From contig OY804588.1 of the NCBI GenBank assembly GCA_963680875.1, positions 56,680,369 to 56,744,368 on the forward strand: DNA of 64,000 bases, read 5' to 3'. The position numbers were made by a program, and so were the translations under genes. This document shows, piece after piece, positions 25,201-31,200 of this stretch (position 1 is the first letter of the stretch; every line of letters starts with the position of its first letter). The notes under the pieces are model-generated. The model ran no database searches. It worked only from the letters and a program-made list of their open reading frames with translations, and was not told where the DNA came from. The DNA is from Bathymodiolus brooksi. Its lineage: Eukaryota; Mollusca; Bivalvia; Mytilida; Modiolidae.

Positions 25201-28200
25201 GTGGCATAATGGTTAGCGAGCTGGTCTTGAGTGCAGTAGATTGTGGGTTCGAGCCCTGATCGGATCAAACCAAAGACTATAAAACTGTTATTTGATGCTA
25301 CTCCACTAAGGAGAAAGAGCAAAGACTGGTCGGCTTGGATTCAGAATAATGTGTCCGAGTGGAGAGACCCACGTTTTTGTTTCAGTGAGCTAGCACTTAA
25401 AAAATACAACTCAGCGTGTTGGTCTAGAACAAAAAGGACATCATCACCTCATTGAAAATTAACTTGTTCTCTAATCCCACTCGGGCGAAATATACTTGAT
25501 ACAACAGTATGTGATAAAGTTCGTCAGTGACTTACAACAGGTCAGTGGTTTTCTCCAGGTACTTGGGTTTCCTCCACCATGACTGCCACGATATAACTGA
25601 AATATTGTTGAAAGTAGTTATACACCTTAACCCTATAGCTGAAAAATTGCTCATTTGGCATTAGTCATTCGCTTACTCTCCTGTTTTATAAGGATTACAT
25701 TACACCATATCAATTTATTTTTTTGATAGGTTTGTTGTGTTTTTTACAGGTGCACCTACAAGAGGAACCAGAGGTGGTAGATATAATTCAGCACCACCAG
25801 TACGAGGTGGTGGGTTTGGTAGGCCCCAAACAGCTGCTTCATCGTACGACACTGATAAAGGAGAAAGACCCAGGTGAGATTTTTTAATTCTGCTTTTCTA
25901 TGTTAATATAGATGCAAAGTTAAACTTGTCATGGGTGAATGGATACACTTCTGATTGGCTGTTTGTGTACTATAGCAAAAATCATACAAGTGGCATGAAT
26001 AATAGGCAGTCGGGCCTTTCCAATAAGGGGTGGTACCAGGTACTTTTACACTCCTAAAATGGTCTTTGGAACCTCTTGATTTAAATAGGTTGTTTAAGAT
26101 ATTCATGAAATTTTTTCAAATTTTAATAAAAAAAAGTATCTCCTGTAAATAGTGAAGTAGTGGTAGACTTGAAAAATATTGAAACCCCTTGGCAGTTCAC
26201 AGTATAATTTGTCTGACCATGATGAAACTGAAAAATTATAATGTTGGTGTAAAATCTCTACGAAGGTCTATATTGCATGAGCAAAAATTAAAGTTAATTC
26301 ATAATAAAACTACCCATTGAAATGCACAATTAATAAAACTTTACTCATTGAAATGCATAATCACAAAAATATTTGTAAGATTGATAGGATTGCTTTGAAA
26401 CATTTTCCATCAATGCGGGATCTATGCATATTTTTTCTTTCCAGAAAGGACAAAAAACCTGATAGAGCACCCCCTCCACCTAGATTTGCAGCAAAGAGGG
26501 GTTTAAACGAGAGGGGGAGGGGCACTGATCGTGGCAAAGCCCGTGGCAGAGGTCGAGGAGGAAGTGCCCCTCCTAGCATTGGTTCAAAGCCGCCACAGCT
26601 GGCTCAGCAAAACTCCTCGGAATATGCCATTGAAGGTGAAGAGTGGGAAACGGCATCGGAGAGTAGTGATTTTCTAGGAAGGAATGACTCGAGAAATGAT
26701 AAGGATCAAGACAAAAGAGATTCAACTCCTGGGAAAAGAAGCTTTTCAAGCCAACGTCCCGTTAGTGATCGTCAGAATAGGAAAGGTCAAACAGACTGGA
26801 GGAAGCAAAATGGAGTAGACTATAGTAGAAATCCAAATAAAGAAAAATCCCCTAATCACCTGACAAAAAACGGGCTAGCTAGGGGCGGCAATGGTGCCCC
26901 GCGAAAATCCAATTACTCTAACAAGAAAGAGAATGTGTCCAATGTGTACCGAGTAGATCATATGGTGAATAATGATCCCAATGCTATAAAGAATGCTATC
27001 AATAATAGCAAGTAAGTTTAGCCTCTAATTCTACAGTTTGATCGGGGTGGGTGGGGGGGGTTACGGTATTTAACACCACTTTCAATAATATTGCAGTTAT
27101 ATTGTGGCAGTCAGTTTAAGGTGGAGAAAACCACCTACCTGCTGCAAGTCACTGACAAACTTTATCATAATTTTGTATCGAGTATGAATTGTGTCAAAAG
27201 CAGTTTCCAGATTACATGTTCAAGTAATGCTTACACTTTGGTTACAGTAAGCAAACTATTTGATTGCTTTTCCTTGAGTTTGCCTTGATGATCTTCTATA
27301 TCTGTCAATCCCATGAAACTAGTGATTACACAATAGGTCTGAGCAAACAAACTTGGTCATGCAAAATTATCCTACTGCCTTCTTGATATGTAGGCTTAAG
27401 TTTATGGTATTTAATGCCACTTTCAACAATATTTCAGTTATTTCATAGCGGTAACCTTTATTGGTGGAGAAAACCACCAACCTGGCGCAAGTAACTGATG
27501 ATCTTTATCACATAATGTTGTATTGAGTTCGCAATGAACTGGTTTTGAAATCACAACGTTAGTGATGAAAGACACTGATTGAATAGGTAGTTGTAAATCC
27601 AACTATCATACGATTACAACCACAGTTACAGTAAGCAAACTATTTGATTGCTGTTCCTTGGTCTTACAAGTTGAGTTTGCCTTGATGATCTTCTATATCT
27701 GTCAATCCCATGAAACTAGTGATTACACAATAGGTCTGAGCAAGCAAACTTGGTCATACAAAATTATCCTACTGCCTTCTTGATATGTAGGCTTAAGGTT
27801 ATGGTGTTTAATGCCACTTTCAACAATATTTCAGTTATTTCATAGCGGTAGCCTTTATTGGTGGAGGAAACCGGAGAAAACCACCAACCTGGCACAAGTA
27901 ACTGACGAACTTTATCACATAATGTTGTATCGAGTTCGCAATGAACTGGTTTCGAAATCACAACGTTAGTGATGAAAGACACTGATTGAATAGGTAGTTG
28001 TAAATCCAACTATCATACGATTACAACCACAGTTACAGTAAGCAAACTATTTGATTGCTGTTCCTTGGTCTTACAAGTTGAGTTTGCCTTGATGATCTTC
28101 TATATCTGTCAATCCCATGAAACTAGTGATTACACAATAGGTCTGAGCAAACAAACTTGGTCATGCAAAATTATCCTACTGCCTTCTTGATATGTAGGCT

Positions 28201-31200
28201 TAAGGTTATGGTGTTTAATGCCACTTTCAACAATATTTCAGTTATTTCATAGCGGTAGCCTTTATTGGTGGAGGAAACCGGAGAAAACCACCAACCTGGC
28301 ACAAGTAACTGACGAACTTTATCACATAATGTTGTATCGAGTTCGCAATGAACTGGTTTCGAAATCACAACGTTAGTGATGAAAGACACTGATTGAATAG
28401 GTAGTTGTAAATCCAACTATCATACGATTACAACCACAGTTACAGTAAGCAAACTATTTGATTGCTGTTCCTTGGTCTTACAAGTTGAGTTTGCCTTGAT
28501 GATCTTCTATATCTGTCAATCCCATGAAACTAGTGATTACACAATAGGTCTGAGCAAACAAACTTGGTCATGCAAAATTATCCTACTGCCTTCTTGATAT
28601 GTAGGCTTAAGTTTATGGTATTTAATGCCACTTTCAACAATATTTCAGTTATTTCATAGCGGTAACCTTTATTGGTGGAGAAAACCACCAACCTGGCGCA
28701 AGTAACTGATGATCTTTATCACATAATGTTGTATTGAGTTCGCAATGAACTGGTTTTGAAATCACAACGTTAGTGATGAAAGACACTGATTGAATAGGTA
28801 GTTGTAAATCCAACTATCATACGATTACAACCACAGTTACAGTAAGCAAACTATTTGATTGCTGTTCCTTGGTCTTACAAGTTGAGTTTGCCTTGATGAT
28901 CTTCTATATCTGTCAATCCCATGAAACTAGTGATTACACAATAGGTCTGAGCAAACAAACTTGGTCATGCAAAATTATCCTACTGCCTCTATGATATAAC
29001 GGTTACCGGTAGTAGTAGAAGAGGGTTAGGTTTATGGTGTTTAACGCAATTTTCAACCATATATCAGTTATTTCGTGGCAGTCAGTTTTATTGATGGGGG
29101 AAAACGGAGTATCCAGAGAAAACCACAGACCTGTTGCAAGTCACTGACAAATTTTATCACATAAAGTTGTTAGTAGAAGAGATAGAGGTTCAAGTCAAAT
29201 TGATCAACTAATGACATAAAATTGGATCGTGTCTCCTCTCCACTAAACAATTATAAAAAGAATGTTTAAACAGTGATGATAAAGAATTCCACCAAAGTCA
29301 ACAAAACAAACATACCTCTTTAAGGACACCCAGACTAGGAATCAGAAAAATGTGCAACGGTAGAATGATGTGCCCACTAATCAGTACAGTATACTAATTT
29401 AATGAACTAGTGCTATATCTATCCTAGTCATACTATTACTCAAGTACAATCGGACAGAACTATAGACATTTCAACATGTAATGTTCAGGACTGGGTTGAA
29501 CATTAATTAAATCTAAGTGTCAATTAAACTTAAATTACTTGAATCGTACACGGAATTATTTGCATTTGAGGTTTGATTGAGATTTAAATTTAATTGACGT
29601 TTGTGCAACCCAGTCCTGACCATATAGACATTTAGCTAAAAATATTTGTTATTTGAAACTAGAAAGTTCAACCACTGGTGTAGAACATGTGGAAATAAAG
29701 TCGTCCAATGGTAAAACCACCTCAAGATGGGACAGAACAAACTATTGGTTGACTTAAGTTTATGTTGCAGAGAAAGTACTAATTCGTGAATAGCTGGATG
29801 TTTTCTGCTTGCTGAAAGTATTTAAGCATGTTGCAGTGTTTCAGTTACATTTTAAAATCTTCAGGACGATTGCCAGATTTATCAACATTTCCTCTGGACA
29901 GTCTTTTAATAATTGAACTAATTTTAATAAAGTTTTTTTTTTTCTTAAAAAAACCCCCCAATTTTTATTTATAAAGTTCTGCAGGACAATTTGAGAAATA
30001 GGTCCCGAGACCGATGCCTAGCTGAATCACTGTTGTCAGTTTGCAGTGATGAACTCCTTAAATATCTGTCAATCCAATGATATTTAACATGAATTGAATT
30101 GTGAATCTGAGCAAACTAATATCTTGTGGTCTTTAAATATAGTATGGAAACTCTTTATGACAAACATATTAAGGTGGTTTTAATGGAATTGGATCGAGTA
30201 TCTTCACTAATGCTTTTCAGTATATGATGGGTTTACAGTAATCCATTATGTACTAATGTTTCAGGATAAATTTCAGCCATTTTGCCACAATTTTATTCTC
30301 ATTTGTGAATTAATTGGAAATAATTTTGTCTTTCAGAAATCGGTCCACAAAGCCCTCTGACTTGACAGATGTATCAAAACCATTGAAACCAGAAGAAAGA
30401 AGGGAGAAAAATGTTCTGGAAAATATTGACATAAATAATTATGCCAGTGAGTTTACTCCTGTCCATCTAACAATACAGCCATAAATTTTAAGGAATCTTT
30501 TCTTATATACCAACATAAATCAATTACTGTTAAATCTGTATTAAGAGGTCACCTTTGGGACAAAGAAAAGGTGGTCTTTCAAGACAAGGTGACCTCTTAA
30601 ACGAGGTTCAATTCATATGAAAATTTCTATGACAGGACAAGAAAAAGGTGACTGCATAGGCAGGTTTGACTAGAATACATTCACCCGTTTTTCAATAAGG
30701 TGAAGTTGATATTCACCACAAGTGGTAAAGCAGTTTAGAAAATGATTGTGTTTTTTGAAAATACTTATTTGTTTTATTCTAAGAAAAAATAATTTAGAGT
30801 TTGCAATGGTAAAGCAGTTAAGAAAATGATTGTGTTTTTTGAAAATACTGATTTGTTTTATTCTAAGAAAAAATAATTTGGAGTTTGCGATGATGATTTC
30901 CAATATCTGTCAATCCCATGAAACAAGTGATTAAAAAAAAAGAATCTGAGCAAACAATTAAAATTAGTCCAACTGCTGTGGTAAGAAAAATATTTATGAT
31001 GAAAGTCTGCGAACCAATTAAAAACCTGAATTTTATTATACCCCCTGCTAGCCAAGCTGTTTTATGAGTGGGTTGGTATCCCCCATTCTCATCTCCTTTG
31101 AAACCAGGGAATGGATTTCTGATGTCGGAAATTATGGTGCTCATTGTGTACTGCAATTTGTTCATTCAAGACCTCAAATAATACATGGCAATATTTTAAT

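Follow-up and report, generated by a model that had tools for sequence, protein, structure and literature searches.

Introns of a PRRC2 gene of Bathymodiolus brooksi contain predicted SNORD110-like box C/D RNAs and a second putative guide family for 18S rRNA

In box C/D ribonucleoproteins, fibrillarin methylates the paired nucleotide of the target. Among the PRRC2 genes, PRRC2B hosts SNORD62; literature searches for small nucleolar RNAs (snoRNAs) with PRRC2, for SNORD62 with PRRC2 and for oyster gave no match for SNORD62 in this host and, among the titles listed, no account of the RNAs described below. According to the accessible text of PMC5025248, human PRRC2A hosts SNORA38, which gives a snoRNA host of the PRRC2 family a precedent. 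A table in the same paper lists NOP56 as the host of SNORD110 and U1288 of 18S ribosomal RNA (rRNA) as its target, in agreement with an earlier note on the DNA studied here. For vertebrates, the accessible text of PMC3349704 reports several gene copies per snoRNA and hosts that differ between species, and the host gene is therefore not regarded as a defining feature of a snoRNA. Here, a stretch of 64,000 nt of the bivalve B. brooksi (contig OY804588.1; hereafter the window), which is part of a 2.0 Gb assembly of 136 contigs, was analyzed. A PRRC2 gene in this stretch hosts twelve predicted intronic box C/D units of two families, all on the + strand. The reading that these seven relatives of SNORD110 and five units of a second family guide 2'-O-methylation of 18S rRNA is given a probability of roughly 0.75.

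The guide ATCTGTCAATCC could be identified on the + strand at positions 27300, 27697, 28104, 28511, 28908, 30064 and 30905. When one mismatch was allowed, seven matches were obtained in the window, compared with 0.41 expected from shuffled sequences. All seven copies carry a terminal GTTTGC/GCAAAC stem, a box C, the D' box AUGA and the D box CUGA, both when read directly and when aligned, and were located where the earlier note had placed them. Only in copy 2 is the 3' strand of the stem GCAAGC, with G.U as the outer stem pair. Box C reads UUGAUGA, GUGAUGA or AUGAUGA, and copy 6 has a poor C'-like box. A stretch of 58 nt is identical in the five copies of the array (copies 1 to 5), and copy 7 has 86% identity to it, whereas copy 6 matches the array in a 24-nt core at 88%. 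The guide region upstream of box D is not conserved between the copies, and no target was assigned to it. A model built from the seven copies found these seven and two chance-level matches on the - strand. The region proposed in the earlier note, 27278..30955, does hold all seven units, but it leaves out five further snoRNA units of the same gene. At 30723-30890 an 84-nt tandem duplication was observed, the second copy of which enters the 5' stem of copy 7; of that stem, the first copy has no more than GAGTTTGC.

When the copies were compared with Rfam by Infernal, SNORD110 (RF00610) was the best family by E-value for all seven, with E-values of 1.5e-7 to 6e-6 in a search of 4.4 kb and of 2.1e-6 to 8.8e-5 in the whole window. 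The Infernal comparison suggested in the earlier note thus pointed to the expected family, but with scores under its gathering cut-off, and the units are therefore named SNORD110-like; a cmscan of the window at the gathering threshold listed nothing. The alignments cover the full model (1-71) and contain the UUGC...GCAA ends, box C, AUCUGUCAAUCC, D' and UCUGAGCAA. The copies resemble SNORD110 in the guide AUCUGUCAAUCC, which is identical and lies at an identical distance from D', as well as in boxes C and D and the UUGC/GCAA ends. They differ in the D' box, which is CUGA in the family consensus and AUGA here, in the host, which is NOP56 in human and PRRC2 here, and in number, with seven copies here, six of which lie in one intron. 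The idea of a SNORD110-like guide in a different host is supported by the top Rfam match of all seven copies together with the BAT2_N domain of the host gene (see below).

Searches of the assembly gave no second SNORD110-like locus, either by DNA similarity, by RF00610 or by a guide + D' pattern. The similarity search with copy 5 returned no sequence other than six of the seven copies. With RF00610, for which 65 of 196201 first-look candidates were scored, seven places were found at E<=0.001, all of them in the window and none over the cut-off. The pattern ATCTGTCAATCCNNTGA, which combines guide and D', matched seven times in 2.0 Gb, all in the window and none in reverse; it would miss a NOP56-hosted copy with an altered guide, and since the backward control pattern gave 35 forward matches and none in reverse, it is not certain from this output alone that the search covered the reverse strand.

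To estimate chance occurrence, a mechanical scan for box C, CTGA and a stem of 6 or more was used. It gave 10 matches on the + strand and 0 on the - strand of the window, whereas 200 Markov-random sequences gave 0.3 on average and never more than 2. The ten matches are the seven SNORD110-like units and three units of the second family, and the scan overlooked two of the twelve units, those at 5665 and 42654. With a stem of 5 or more, 10 matches were obtained on + and 1 on -, and the 49.6 kb upstream gave 0 matches on both strands. A CTGA box D and a terminal stem are present in all twelve units. These counts bear on the possibility that a dispersed repeat carries the units, which would then be relics without expression or chance look-alikes. 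The array does sit amid dispersed repeats, but random sequence and the upstream region yielded far fewer matches than the window, and the copies lie on the host strand, within introns and, unlike the dispersed repeat, nowhere else in the assembly searches. This explanation is considered very improbable.

The SNORD110-like guide forms 12 pairs upstream of D' with the 18S segment GGATTGACAGAT, giving a duplex of -19.0 kcal/mol. The earlier note had described the guide as antisense over 12 nt to conserved 18S, which holds for the segment found in an 18S-like sequence of the same genome (L028, contig C13) and in the eukaryotic 18S consensus of Rfam. In L028:802-2289, the 18S-like 5' and 3' parts are split by unrelated sequence, the probable explanation being an rDNA pseudogene or an rDNA copy that has received an insertion. 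Matches on another contig (C78, 2.66 Mb) were to bacterial rRNA; the contig carries two bacterial rRNA operons with tRNAs (L026, L027) and looks like a bacterial contig, symbiont or contaminant, within the animal assembly. Patterns for 28S gave nothing in the viral and genome collections. As the earlier note had counted, the fifth nucleotide upstream of D' lies opposite the first U of the segment, here GGAUUGACAG, and the D' guide of the seven copies would direct 2'-O-methylation at this U. Its number, U1288 in human, rests on the homology to SNORD110 and on the table in PMC5025248, not on a human 18S sequence. In the available table of PMC11542601, Um1235 and Um1288 share one row, and since its columns, inferred without headings, are taken as plants and human, the site appears to be widely conserved.

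The second family was exposed by weak SNORD83 signals, the C/D scan and blastn. Its five copies (a to e) are distributed over four PRRC2 introns other than those with SNORD110-like units. SNORD83 (RF00137) was rejected as its identity, as it scored only 25.8-28.1 bits in three of the five copies (E 0.3-1.2, cut-off 35); the family is without an Rfam family and apparently undescribed. A model from its copies found the five and two weak - strand matches overlying two of them. The D' region is not conserved between copies and no target was assigned to it. Copies a and b are 97.6% identical over 82 nt, which is the unit only, and their flanks gave no blastn match, as in RNA-mediated copying or strong constraint. 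Copies d and e were duplicated together with an upstream dispersed repeat. A similarity search of the assembly with copy e returned three places, all in the window; since the copies at 5665 and 6170 were beyond its reach, distant copies elsewhere could escape it. Short tandem repeats follow copy d directly (47598-47735), with related sequence at 48583-48671.

Two nucleotides before box D, the second family has a guide of 12 nt, CATCACTCACCG. This guide and its variant in copy c pair with the 18S segment TTCGGTGGGTGGTG in all five copies and in one register, with runs of 15, 15, 13, 13 and 13 pairs (copies a to e), of which 3, 3, 6, 3 and 3 are G.U. The changes of copy c within the guide are all three C to T, opposite G. 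When the guide columns were permuted jointly (n=1000), the shared run was at most 10, compared with 13 observed, and 0 of 1000 permutations were as good. The same place was found in a 107-nt part of the Rfam 18S consensus, whereas runs did not go beyond 7-10 with a 728-nt 18S 3' part whose target site differs. This part belongs to L007, an IMG/VR contig in which the eukaryotic 18S part is joined to unrelated, seemingly phage-like sequence and which is probably a chimera.

Counted from box D, the fifth nucleotide upstream lies opposite the second G of UUCGG within UUCGGUGGGUGGUG, and the D guide would direct methylation at the second G of this segment. The predicted G, the second of UUCGGUGGG, lies 30 nt downstream of the U targeted by the SNORD110-like guide and would be position 1318 of human 18S when counted without indels. 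SNORD33 and SNORD32A, which target U1326 and G1328 of human 18S in the same G/U-rich segment, presumably differ from the second family in nucleotide and register, and an Rfam search gave no match between SNORD33 and the family. A text search of the literature linking snoRNA, 18S rRNA and Gm1318 or G1318 gave no match, and a search on molluscan snoRNAs and O-methylation of 18S rRNA returned two papers, neither with snoRNA guides in its title. In the available table of PMC11542601, plant Um1264 and Um1266 lie 29 and 31 nt after Um1235, compared with 30 for the second family; with the columns assigned as above, they are neighbouring nucleotides and not the predicted G, and among the entries read as human, none falls between Um1288 and 1326. 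The pairing could also be coincidental, with the second family being a C/D snoRNA with another or no target. The 18S segment is G/U-rich and of low complexity, copy c needs its six G.U pairs, and the comparison covered only 820 nt of 18S of this genome, taken from L028, and neither 28S nor small nuclear RNAs. Against this, the pairing lies at the canonical place adjoining box D, in the same register in all copies, and was equalled by none of the column shuffles, and a coincidence is considered improbable. The second guide resembles the complement of 5' splice sites, and it was considered that it may mask such sites.

The host was assigned to the PRRC2/BAT2 family, as the earlier note had proposed, by Pfam BAT2_N, a marker of this family, which matched an exon just upstream of the window (L008) with 83 bits (E 4.9e-23, cut-off 25). 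A second exon there scored 24.7 bits, slightly under the cut-off. Nine exon peptides from the window itself matched no Pfam family, and searching proteins with one PRRC2 exon was uninformative, as all 5 matches were unnamed. For the intron with copies a and b of the second family only the donor, after 2849, was located. Human PRRC2A is comparable as a PRRC2-family snoRNA host (PMC5025248), but SNORA38 is an H/ACA RNA, unlike the C/D units here; a SNORA38 match at 29285-29420 reached 18.8 bits, which is chance level compared with the cut-off of 60, and was rejected. Weak microRNA (miRNA) and other Rfam matches were likewise rejected. In the intron with six SNORD110-like copies, the arms of a 22-nt inverted repeat (91%) at 29481-29623 enclose another inverted repeat, with only weak miRNA-family matches. 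On the - strand at 62676-63221, an open frame resembles by eye a fragment of a LINE-type reverse transcriptase.

A dispersed repeat of ~150 nt gave 27 blastn matches in the window, with the query and partial pieces counted. One lies between each neighbouring pair of array snoRNAs (four) and one at each end, and all six have the same orientation. Over 407 columns, array units 1 and 4 show a single difference and units 2 and 3 show 2, compared with 18-21 differences between these pairs, 10 of which are one gap. Probably, the array grew by unequal recombination between repeats that flanked one snoRNA. In a test for hybrid repeats, the 5' third of the junction repeats was nearer to the right flank (44/52 compared with 39/53) and the 3' third nearer to the left flank (40-42/53 compared with 35-36/53), and the middle was without clear affinity. 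Because the array copies are too alike, their snoRNA identity says nothing about selection. Pairwise comparison of copies 4, 6 and 7 showed agreement in 38/38 columns of boxes, guide and stem and in 15/40, 23/35 and 14/42 elsewhere, a count that is partly circular as these features defined the units. The divergence of copies 6 and 7 outside boxes and guide, pointed out in the earlier note, was thereby seen again and suggests that both were kept under selection.

The units are presumably expressed and released from the PRRC2 introns by host splicing, debranching and exonuclease trimming. Six units in one intron would in addition need internal cuts, or would leave a longer RNA of up to ~2.8 kb (27280-30114). 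The accessible text of PMC11028025 describes that two snoRNAs in one intron can leave a snoRNA-related long noncoding RNA (sno-lncRNA); the present intron is alike in having more than one predicted snoRNA, but there are six here. Several observations weigh against the overall reading of the locus. The RF00610 scores of 45.7, 43.9 and 39.8 bits lie below the cut-off of 64. In the five array copies box C reads UUGAUGA and so does not start with a purine, box C is imperfect in two of the five second-family copies (a and d), and the pairing of copy c includes 6 G.U of 13. Guide pairing was assessed on an interrupted 18S-like copy and part of a consensus, not on functional 18S, and unequal crossing-over is in only weak agreement with the hybrid-repeat test. 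Finally, animals mostly have one snoRNA per intron (PMC11028025, accessible text), which makes six in one intron an odd point.

Some of these observations would fit activity of only some copies, the five array copies being recent repeat-driven duplicates that are mostly redundant or silent, the guides then coming from copies 6 and 7 together with some second-family units. Only 1-2 of 407 columns separate each array unit from its nearest counterpart, box C is UUGAUGA in the array and imperfect in two second-family copies, and under simple trimming, as described in the accessible text of PMC11028025, protection extends only to the outermost snoRNAs of an intron; all five array copies nevertheless have intact boxes, stem and guide. 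Such partial activity is a serious possibility, at slightly less than even odds. That PRRC2 is dedicated to hosting guides for a single small region of 18S, including a new C/D guide that methylates G 1318 and a six-copy intron that leaves a multi-unit sno-lncRNA, is considered unlikely.

Table 1. Positions of the predicted snoRNA units, host introns and array-flanking repeats in the window.
Feature	Position	Strand	Basis
SNORD110-like copy 1	27280..27346	+	RF00610 45.7 bits
SNORD110-like copy 2	27677..27743	+	RF00610 45.7 bits
SNORD110-like copy 3	28084..28150	+	RF00610 45.7 bits
SNORD110-like copy 4	28491..28557	+	RF00610 45.7 bits
SNORD110-like copy 5	28888..28954	+	RF00610 45.7 bits
SNORD110-like copy 6, diverged	30041..30114	+	RF00610 39.8 bits
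SNORD110-like copy 7, diverged, following intron	30885..30953	+	RF00610 43.9 bits
Second-family copy a, box C imperfect (AGGATGA)	5665..5746	+	blastn to copy b; alignment
Second-family copy b, shares intron with copy a	6170..6251	+	C/D scan; blastn; alignment
Second-family copy c, three C to T substitutions in guide	42654..42735	+	Rfam signal; blastn; alignment
Second-family copy d, box C imperfect (ATGAAGA)	47517..47598	+	Rfam signal; C/D scan; blastn; alignment
Second-family copy e	51185..51266	+	Rfam signal; C/D scan; blastn; alignment
PRRC2 intron with SNORD110-like copies 1-6	27012..30336	+	splice sites by eye; frame continues
Following PRRC2 intron, with SNORD110-like copy 7	30447..31760	+	splice sites by eye
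PRRC2 intron with second-family copy c	42572-44467	+	splice sites by eye
PRRC2 intron with second-family copy d	46536-48748	+	splice sites by eye
PRRC2 intron with second-family copy e	50531-51958	+	splice sites by eye
Dispersed repeat, left array end	27059..27183	+	blastn
Dispersed repeat, right array end	29022..29170	+	blastn

In mechanism, both families are ordinary C/D guides; what is new is the PRRC2 host, the copy number, the presence of six copies within a single intron and a second guide to which no Rfam family corresponds. The locus is a clear case of a conserved guide in a different host gene, multiplied amid dispersed repeats and with no second locus found in the assembly searches. 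The second guide family adds a precise, testable target 30 nt away, and the six predicted C/D units in one intron could be used to examine how several snoRNAs from the same intron are processed in animals.

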